A stretch of 32,047 nucleotides of DNA from a virus, in IMG/VR virus record IMGVR_UViG_3300032224_000857, positions 1 through 32,047 of that record, one strand, 5' to 3'. Positions 25,459 to 29,930 of this stretch are shown piece after piece (position 1 is the first letter of the stretch; each line of letters begins with the position of its first letter). The position numbers and the translations under genes are program-made. The notes under the pieces are model-generated. The model worked only from the letters and a program-made list of their open reading frames with translations. It was not told where the DNA came from and did not search any database.

Positions 25459-26310
25459 TCAGCTCGCTTTGAGCTGCTCGATCATCTTCCGCCTGGTGGC
25501 CTCGAACCTCGCGGCCTCCTCGCCCGTGAACCCTTGGGCCGGTGGTTTGTCATCCGGGCCTCGATAGCCGCCTGCCGGTCGCTGTTCCCGTGGGTTGTCA
25601 AACTGCCCACCTAGAACCTTGTCGACGAAGCCGGCGGCCACGAGCTGCGGCAGCGTCACTGGGTCGCGGAAGTATTTGCACCGTGGCAGGGCCTCGATGG
25701 CCGCCAGGGCCTTCTCGAACCAGCCCTCCTCGGCCAGGCGGTCTCCGACCTTGTCCGGGGCCGTGGGAAGCTTCCAAGGCCGTCCTGTGCCTGCGGCCCA
25801 CGCCTTCCGTAGCGTGTCCCAGCCTGCCGGCTGCTCCGGTCCTTGCGCAGCACTTCCTGGGGAAGAAGAAGAATTTCTATCTCCTCTATCTCTTCTCTCT
25901 AGGGCGCGCGGCGCCACAGCCGGGGGCGCTACGCGCCCCGCACGGGGGCGCTGGGCGCCCCCGGCCTTGTCCACCTGGTGCCGGACGTTGGCAAGAGCCC
26001 GTGATTTAGCGGCCTGCGAGAACCGACGCTCCCATCCGGGGATCGCCACAGTTCCGTTCTCCGCGTCAATCACAAGCCAGCCCACCGACTCGACCTCCCG
26101 CCAGAACTCGTCGTCACCGCCGCACAGCTTCGCCAGCAGCCGGACTGACATCCGGGCCGTGCCGTCGGAGCTGTTGAGCGCCGCCCAGCCCCACAGCATC
26201 AGGAGCCGCCCGACGACCTGGTCCGGCTGCAGGCCGGTACGGTCGACGAGCTCGAGCACCTCGGGCTTGTGGGGCAGGCAGACGTCGTAGGGAATCCATT
26301 CACCGGCCAT
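25459..26310 (-). CDS. replication initiator-like protein with HTH domain
   Basis: This 283-aa protein has an N-terminal domain (about 1-105) with EWIPYDVCLPHKPEVLELV, DQVVGRLLMLWGWAAL, and a winged-helix part WREVESVGWLVI, as in phage replication organisers; a Ser/Arg-rich linker (about 115-160); and a C-terminal helical domain from about 165. The linker DNA carries three palindromic iterons and an A/T-rich purine tract, as lambda O does with its origin. It likely binds the origin and loads the host helicase, since no helicase gene is present. AAGGAGG precedes the ATG. Confidence 0.7.
   Translation of the reverse strand: MAGEWIPYDVCLPHKPEVLELVDRTGLQPDQVVGRLLMLWGWAALNSSDGTARMSVRLLAKLCGGDDEFWREVESVGWLVIDAENGTVAIPGWERRFSQAAKSRALANVRHQVDKAGGAQRPRAGRVAPPAVAPRALERRDRGDRNSSSSPGSAAQGPEQPAGWDTLRKAWAAGTGRPWKLPTAPDKVGDRLAEEGWFEKALAAIEALPRCKYFRDPVTLPQLVAAGFVDKVLGGQFDNPREQRPAGGYRGPDDKPPAQGFTGEEAARFEATRRKMIEQLKAS
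25862..25962. repeat. candidate replication origin: three palindromic iterons and an AT-rich tract
   Basis: Three copies of GGCGC-NNN-GCGCC start at 25903, 25925 and 25947, exactly 22 bp apart. The second and third extend to 7- and 8-bp arms (25923-25939 and 25944-25962). Just to the left, 25862-25902 is a strand-asymmetric A/T-rich stretch (pure purine-rich on the minus strand). Iterons at helical spacing plus an unwinding element inside an initiator gene form the lambda-type origin design. Confidence 0.7.
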
Positions 26311-26322
26311 CCGTGGCCTCCT

Positions 26323-27138
26323 TCAAAACTTTGAGAATTGCTCAAACTCGTCAAACGCTTCAGCTTTCTTACAACGAAGGCCCTTGCTGTAAATCAGAGC
26401 GATTGCGTCGTATGTCGCCAGCGCTCGCCCGTACTGCGAAGAGTCCCTGTCCTTGCCAAGTTTGTGGTTCGCATCGGCAGCCCTGACTACACCGTTGATC
26501 GACTTTTTCGAGAGCTTCTCGACAAGCCTGCTCATGTCGAAGTCAGGGTGTTTCTTTATGAACCAGCACATGCCCTCGATCATGTCGCCCTGCAATGCTC
26601 CATCCTCTCCAGGCCACGACCTGTCGAGTATGTGCAGTGCTGTGCGAAGACCGGTCGCACTGACCCTGACGAATGACCTCTCAAGCGCCTTGACGGCGCG
26701 GATGCAGGGCCACGAGGTGCTGTGATTGTCTAGTCCGAGCTTGAACCCCGCAGACTTGACGCAGTCTGCGATTGCAAGCGTCTGCTCGTCTCCTTCTGTG
26801 AGCTGAGCGCGAAACAACACAACCGCAGAAACGTTAGTCCGTTCTCTGTTTTTGAGCCGAAACACTCGTGCTTCGTGCTCTTGGCCATCGGACTGAAACA
26901 CATCGCAAGGGACCATCCCAATCCCAAGTTTTCGAGCGGCAGTAAGTCGTTGCATGCCATCAACCACCCAGTAAGAGCCGTCCTTCCGCTGCCCAACAGT
27001 AAGAGAGCCAAACGCATCTTGGTCCAAGTTCTTCGCAATTCTGCTGACACGATTTGGCACAATAGTCCGCTGATACGAGTCGGAGATGTTCAACTCGTCG
27101 ACTCCGATCTTCTTGTTTTCTGTCTTCAGTAGCCGCAT
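26323..27138 (-). CDS. ParB-like N-domain protein
   Basis: This 271-aa protein has a ParB/sulfiredoxin-like domain in its first half: DSYQRTIVPNRVSRIAKNL, SLTVGQRKDGSYWVVDGMQRLTAARKLG (the DGMQR box takes the place of ParB DGHHR) and KNRERTNVSA. The second half is helical, with a conserved look but no known domain. Such orphan phage proteins act as DNA-binding regulators or as NTP-dependent nucleases. Base composition seems less GC-rich than neighbours, which points to recent gain. AAAGGAGG precedes the ATG. Confidence 0.75.
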   Translation of the reverse strand: MRLLKTENKKIGVDELNISDSYQRTIVPNRVSRIAKNLDQDAFGSLTVGQRKDGSYWVVDGMQRLTAARKLGIGMVPCDVFQSDGQEHEARVFRLKNRERTNVSAVVLFRAQLTEGDEQTLAIADCVKSAGFKLGLDNHSTSWPCIRAVKALERSFVRVSATGLRTALHILDRSWPGEDGALQGDMIEGMCWFIKKHPDFDMSRLVEKLSKKSINGVVRAADANHKLGKDRDSSQYGRALATYDAIALIYSKGLRCKKAEAFDEFEQFSKF

Positions 27139-28970: not shown

Positions 28971-29930
28971 TCATGCCACGGCATTGACGGCCACCTCCGG
29001 CTCAATCTGCTGGTGGCGGATGCTGATCTGCTTGTCGAGTCGCGCCCTCTGTGTCGGGCTCAGGTCGCCCGTGGAGACAGCCTGGTCGGCCTCGTCGCCG
29101 ATGGTGCCGAGCTCCTCGACGGTGGCGGCGTTGTTCACACGCTCCAGCCAGCCGATCCGATGCTCAGTCGTGGAAGGCACCGCGGCAGGTCCGTGAACCG
29201 CCGCGGTGCTTGTCCCACCCGCCGGCAACGCTGCCGTCGGTTCTGTGTTCCCTGCTGCCAGCCACGCGGCGAGCTGCTTGCCAAGCTCTTCGCCGGCCTC
29301 GCGGATGATCTGGTCCTTGAGCCATGCGGCCCTGGTCTTCGTGATGATCAGCTCGTGGTCCTGCGTCACGTCGCCGACCACGGTGAACTCGTACTCCAGG
29401 CCGTCACGCTGGACCGGCTGCAGCCCGACCTTGCGGACCTGAGTCCGGCCGTTGACCTGTTCGATAACGTGCTCGACCTTGCTGCGGAGCGTGCAGATGA
29501 TGTGCAGCTTCGCGCCAAGGATCGCGTCGACCAACTGGTTGTGGAGCGGCGTGGCGTCACGCCAGCCTGAGAAGCTGCCCCCACCTGATCGCTTCGCGGC
29601 CTTGTCGACAAACTCAAGGATGCCGCCCTTGCCAGCCCATGCGTGGCTCAGGCTGTCGATGATCAGCACGTCGTAGCCGGCGGTCTCGGCCTGGGCGATC
29701 GCCTGGATGAACTTCTCGGCCTCGTAGCTGTCGAGCTCGTCGACGTCGAAGTCGAGGCCACGCTCGCCGCTGTAGAGGCTGGCCGAGCCGCGCTCTGTGT
29801 CGATCACCGCCACGCGGCCGCCGAGCCCGTAGGCGACCCGCAGGGCCGTCATCGTCTTGCCGCTGCCCGCCGGGCCGATGAGTCCAAGCCGAAGTTTTGC
29901 TGCCGCCTTTGTTGCCTTCTTGAAACCCAT
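28971..29930 (-). CDS. RecA-like ATPase, Sak4-type recombinase
   Basis: This 319-aa protein begins with an intact P-loop, GPAGSGKT (19-26), then a VIDTERGSASLY segment and Walker B VLIIDSLSH (88-96), followed by the Sak4/AAA_24 outline GGILEFVDKAAKRSG, HNQLVDAILGAKLHIICTLRSK and VGLQPVQRDGLEYEFTVV. Sak4 proteins are single-strand annealing or strand-exchange recombinases that work with SSB. The C-terminal 70 residues are a linker and helical tail. The start has AAAGGA upstream. Confidence 0.85.
   Translation of the reverse strand: MGFKKATKAAAKLRLGLIGPAGSGKTMTALRVAYGLGGRVAVIDTERGSASLYSGERGLDFDVDELDSYEAEKFIQAIAQAETAGYDVLIIDSLSHAWAGKGGILEFVDKAAKRSGGGSFSGWRDATPLHNQLVDAILGAKLHIICTLRSKVEHVIEQVNGRTQVRKVGLQPVQRDGLEYEFTVVGDVTQDHELIITKTRAAWLKDQIIREAGEELGKQLAAWLAAGNTEPTAALPAGGTSTAAVHGPAAVPSTTEHRIGWLERVNNAATVEELGTIGDEADQAVSTGDLSPTQRARLDKQISIRHQQIEPEVAVNAVA

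Follow-up and report, generated by a model that had tools for sequence, protein, structure and literature searches.

Where does replication of an uncultivated freshwater phage begin, and how would its initiator recognize that site? The question is raised by a 32,047-nucleotide stretch of viral DNA (IMG/VR record IMGVR_UViG_3300032224_000857, positions 1 to 32,047; hereafter, the window), in which three palindromic repeats (iterons) and an A/T-rich tract lie inside a replication initiator gene. We conclude that this segment is very probably the replication origin of the phage, embedded in the initiator gene on the plan of phage lambda but with a different initiator family, and with a recognition helix and its iterons travelling together. 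The features of the locus are as follows.

25459–26310, minus strand: replication initiator gene, 283 aa (PHROG 2509 and PHROG 9474 profiles; relatives)
26032–26310, minus strand: N-terminal winged-helix-like domain, residues 1–93 (AlphaFold2 model, weak Foldseek matches)
25963–26016, minus strand: proposed recognition helix, residues 99–116 (model and covariation)
25990–25992 and 25978–25980, minus strand: proposed specificity residues 107 and 111, respectively
25943–25963: iteron with 9-bp arms, CGGGGGCGC-TGG-GCGCCCCCG on the plus strand, first in gene sense
25923–25939: iteron with 7-bp arms, GGGGCGC-TAC-GCGCCCC
25903–25915: iteron with 5-bp arms, GGCGC-GCG-GCGCC, adjoining the A/T-rich tract
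25862–25902: proposed DNA unwinding element, A/T-rich and strand-asymmetric (nearest-neighbour energy, composition)
25462–25824, minus strand: C-terminal domain, residues 163–283 (conserved block beyond the linker)

The encoded protein matches PHROG 2509 ('replication initiation protein') over residues 1–161, which comprise the N-terminal domain and linker (E 2.5e-23), and PHROG 9474 (replication initiation protein; E 5.4e-16). A Pfam search found no domain in the protein, C-terminal domain included, and the DnaT domain (PF17948) that is present in TL-2011b, VW-6S, and epsilon15 is absent from it. An AlphaFold2 model of residues 1–125 has pLDDT of about 85–95 across residues 11–90, and just about 58–70 in helix 99–116. 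Foldseek matches of the N-domain were weak (none at E ≤ 0.001), many of them MarR-type winged helices; fold searches of the PDB with the full and N-domain models returned weak matches alone (E > 0.04), and a PDB sequence search with the initiator returned none. In the models, a low-confidence linker is followed by the C-terminal domain, which presumably contacts the replisome, and it is this linker that encodes the iterons and the tract. The profile match and the linker position agree with the original prediction, which had placed the iterons in the linker of a replication initiator-like protein. The initiator is surrounded by phage early genes (e.g., RusA and a Sak4-like ATPase), with terminase and portal genes further left in the window. 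Positions 28971–29930 encode an AAA_24/PHROG 1366 ATPase with weaker Sak4 similarity, likely a recombinase. With the queries used, which a divergent loader might escape, no helicase loader of the P/DnaC type was recognized among the early genes of the window or its relatives; in cultured phages, homologues of the initiator have a DnaC-like loader or a P gene alongside. A prophage host was sought in two scans of genome contigs, neither of which found a relative.

The pattern GGCGC-NNN-GCGCC occurs three times in the window, with starts at 25903, 25925, and 25947, exactly as first predicted along with the 22-bp period. The centres of the interrupted palindrome (GGGGCGC-NNN-GCGCCCC) fall at 25909, 25931, and 25953, i.e., exactly 22 bp apart, and no further copy was found elsewhere in the 32,047 nt with up to one mismatch allowed. 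Arms of 5, 7, and 8 bp had been described; the first two lengths hold and the third is 9 bp. When codons of the window initiator gene were drawn at family codon usage, a 22-bp-spaced palindrome triple appeared in 9 of 20,000 synonymous reshufflings. The adjoining 41 bp, described as A/T-rich and strand-asymmetric, proved to be so in composition and stability: the tract is 63% A+T (32% for the gene), and by nearest-neighbour energy no other 41-mer in the window is as unstable. The window's most stable 41-mer begins at 25902, the far edge of the tract, such that the two extremes of stability are neighbours. The tract has two parts, a stretch at 25876–25902 that is purine-rich on the sense strand of the gene, and then AAATTC with a pyrimidine-rich TTC repeat after it.

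To follow the segment in relatives, we used 79 loci from viral contigs, to which further ones were later added; judged by their contig sets, these would be freshwater phages. The 22-bp lattice and the tract are kept in about 70 distinct relatives (69 in the main set, plus further sequences). Independent evidence for the lattice comes from an unconstrained palindrome search, which recovered centres 22 bp apart at a fixed distance from the tract (a statistic filtered onto the 22-bp lattice is not independent); intermediate centres at 11 bp were also recovered, because half-sites alternate. Iterons usually number three, with four in some relatives (e.g., L027 and L040), and in L027 one base lost ahead of the array compensates for the extra 22 bp and preserves the reading frame. 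In 69 of 69 distinct sequences no 41-mer of the gene is less stable than the tract, and in 48 of 67 the same holds for the entire fetched locus. One relative (L113) has an unusually G-run-rich iteron variant (GGGGGGCG) and a partly eroded purine tract. Because 22 is not a multiple of three and iteron starts in the relatives occupy all three codon frames, protein selection cannot create the iterons. Codon usage in the tract differs sharply from that elsewhere in the same genes: AGA makes up 246 of 265 arginine codons (13 of 1,732 elsewhere), GAT 109 of 109 aspartate codons (127 of 1,341), and TCG none of 297 serine codons (269 of 681). The conserved lattice, the three frames, and the skewed tract codons together show that selection acts on the DNA; iterons and tract are conserved at this level. 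Both expectations stated for this segment, that the 22-bp palindromes recur in relatives and that the linker DNA is under selection, are thus borne out, with 69 distinct relatives keeping the lattice while the encoded peptide changes.

Across 243 distinct sequences, the half-sites occur in five versions.

Version A: GGGGCGC, 31 distinct proteins (close relatives)
Version B: NGTGCGC, 22 distinct proteins (close relatives)
Version C: NACGCGC, 5 distinct proteins (close relatives)
Version D: GTAACGC, far homologues including Rac YdaU, TL-2011b, CP2, and VW-6S
Version E: TGTCCGC, far homologues including epsilon15, SPN1S, and phiPSA1

A purine-rich tract follows the half-sites in most far homologues with versions D and E, which largely track separate lineages. 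Residues 107 and 111 together match the iteron version in all 58 close relatives and predict it in 242 of the 243 distinct sequences, and K102, R104, and R110 do not vary in any of the aligned sets. The sole exception, from Vibrio phage 1.211.A (L250), combines D107/K111 with TGTCAC, not TGTCCGC; its outer TGTC agrees with D/K and its CGC core is altered. A second candidate mismatch (L187) was rejected as a counting tie. In four GTAACGC-type sequences (L081, L082, L083, and L084), a further palindrome, GGTAACGCT-NNN-AGCGTTAC, lies near initiator codons 49–56, in the part of the gene that encodes the winged-helix domain (peptide DGNAxSVT), and has no equivalent in the window.

The flanking domains show a different history. 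Between pairs with different iteron versions, identity was 0.84 in residues 1–93, 0.54 in residues 94–116, and 0.74 in residues 163–283, and the two outer regions hardly track the iteron version. On a tree of these flanking domains, about 11 version changes occurred among the close relatives, of which strongly supported branches force at least three for A and at least three for B. In pairwise DNA alignments, well-conserved flanks enclose a block that diverges between about codons 104 and 138 and stops at the tract; for the window and L007, the swap is confined to about these codons. This distribution suggests that the iterons and the short recognition helix switch specificity as one exchangeable unit, a cassette of about 100 bp with the tract as its boundary. 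Two phages with different iteron versions (L253 and L256) share a 247-bp identical stretch beyond the tract, and another such pair (L197 and L249) has similar linker flanks. Given shared sequence past the tract in different-version phages, recombination seems to have used the purine tract repeatedly as a junction.

We lean slightly towards reading residues 107 and 111 as a recognition code that specifies the outer bases of the iterons (small/H with GGGGCGC, H/A with GGTGCGC, E/N with NACGCGC, T/V with GTAACGC, and D/K with TGTCCGC), in which one short helix reads the iterons, helix and iterons swap as the cassette of about 100 bp, and sequence allows origin specificity to be predicted across a large and mostly uncharacterised initiator family, with oriJ of Rac placed within ydaU. 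Helix and iterons are physically linked, and their covariation could therefore mean co-inheritance instead of contact. Specificity would then reside in another part of the protein, with residues 107 and 111 hitchhiking alongside the iterons in a recombining cassette, as would fit their distance of no more than about 50 bp from the iterons and the exchange of different-version pairs as one block; this is compatible with the origin reading. We regard hitchhiking as unlikely, although it is a serious alternative, since inside the block positions 107 and 111 are perfect and 108, 109, 112, 113, and 115 are not, while the flanking domains do not track the version. Moreover, among far relatives, versions D and E also differ at 107 and 111, and K102, R104, and R110 remain invariant. 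Independent pairs on strongly supported branches were concordant with residues 107 and 111 in three of three cases, a number too small for a significant sign test. Support for taking the covariation as specificity comes from the PLE satellites of Vibrio cholerae, in which the DNA-binding domain of RepA varies together with the iterons of the origin and has undergone repeated swaps, and cognate pairs are experimentally required (PMC8263062). As in the window family, it is the initiator's DNA-binding domain that covaries with the iterons; however, the PLE origin is intergenic and its unit is the whole RepA_N domain, whereas the proposed window origin is intragenic and the covariation traces to one helix.

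How the segment would work as an origin can be proposed by analogy with lambda, in which O dimers bind inverted-repeat iterons inside gene O and open an adjoining 40-bp A+T-rich region (PMC5043065; PMC7466680). Annotated iterons of lambda and lambdoid phages (e.g., Stx phage) are likewise interrupted palindromes with 20–24 bp spacing. As for O, initiator dimers should bind each palindromic iteron, here with the winged-helix region at the N-terminus and basic helix 99–116, and three dimers set two helical turns apart should stack along the same side of the DNA. The resulting strain should open the adjacent A/T-rich tract, at which the helicase would be loaded. We infer that K102, R104, and R110 read or clamp the common CGC core, and that 107 and 111 read the outer bases. 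Because the helix is adjacent to the iterons in the gene, recombination could replace both jointly, so that specificity would shift with the match intact. The segment resembles lambda ori in its position midway along the initiator gene, its interrupted palindromic iterons, and its adjacent A/T-rich region of about 40 bp, but it differs in having GC-rich iterons spaced at exactly 22 bp, and no P-like neighbour was found. The window protein shows no sequence match to the lambda O family (PF04492, PHROG 277): it had no PF04492 match up to E 10, whereas lambda O itself scored 5.7e-36. The 'lambda-type' label given initially is therefore valid for the plan only, i.e., iterons inside the initiator gene and an adjacent tract. 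A turn in cumulative GC skew had also been anticipated here, but the skew lends the origin reading no support: the cumulative curve has no minimum at the site, and values are slightly positive on its left and negative on its right.

If replication began elsewhere, the palindromes could be initiator sites for autoregulation or incompatibility control, as their location within the initiator's own gene might suggest. We consider this improbable: the iterons lie mid-gene, distant from the promoter, and an operator has no need of the window's lowest-stability 41-mer, which stays beside the last iteron in relatives. A terminator, an RNA regulatory hairpin, a mobile palindrome, and low-complexity coding sequence are all very improbable readings of the repeats. 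The hairpins are GC-rich and lie within a low-complexity linker of a high-GC gene; however, they have no trailing U-run in either sense, the repeats occur in three frames, the pattern has no near copies elsewhere in the window, and these readings are disfavoured by the conserved lattice, whose versions vary together with the protein helix. Scarcely credible is a partition or operator site for the product of the DUF6551 gene directly upstream of the initiator (26323–27138), which has a ParB-like N-terminus, since this apparently variable neighbour occurs in one of the 65 relatives' loci having at least 1.2 kb of upstream sequence and the iterons are kept regardless.

The origin reading may extend to cultured phages. 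Initiators of PHROG 2509/9474 (Rac YdaU, epsilon15, TL-2011b, CP2, phiPSA1, and VW-6S) have an N-domain homologous to that of the window and the invariant K102, R104, and R110, and distant members (Rac YdaU, epsilon15, phiPSA1, and CP2) contain inverted half-site arrays in the same linker, mostly with purine-rich tracts. Unlike in the window, their half-sites are GTAACGC or GTCCGC, often 11–12 bp apart in mixed orientation, their C-domains are DnaT-like (PF17948) or others, and several have an adjoining DnaC-like loader. Rac has an active origin, oriJ (PMC3945230). The Rac ydaU gene (L248) encodes the same helix and contains GTAACGC sites and a purine tract, which leads to the prediction that oriJ lies inside ydaU; its position relative to ydaU was not found in the open literature.

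An origin within an initiator gene is a known kind of arrangement. Apparently new are the spread of such origins through PHROG 2509 members of uncultivated freshwater phages, a GC-rich lattice of exactly 22 bp, and an exchanged cassette in which two residues covary with the iterons, although earlier mention in the subscription literature is possible. For several hundred phage genomes whose initiators lie outside the lambda O family, both the position of the origin and the pairing of initiator with site could be predicted. These sequences would constitute a natural specificity-switch series on which a protein–DNA recognition code could be put to the test by changing two residues. If true, origin specificity would be predictable from the initiator sequence, and the cassette would explain how phages exchange replication specificity without an initiator/origin mismatch, with a bearing on modular phage evolution, replicon incompatibility, and satellite parasitism.
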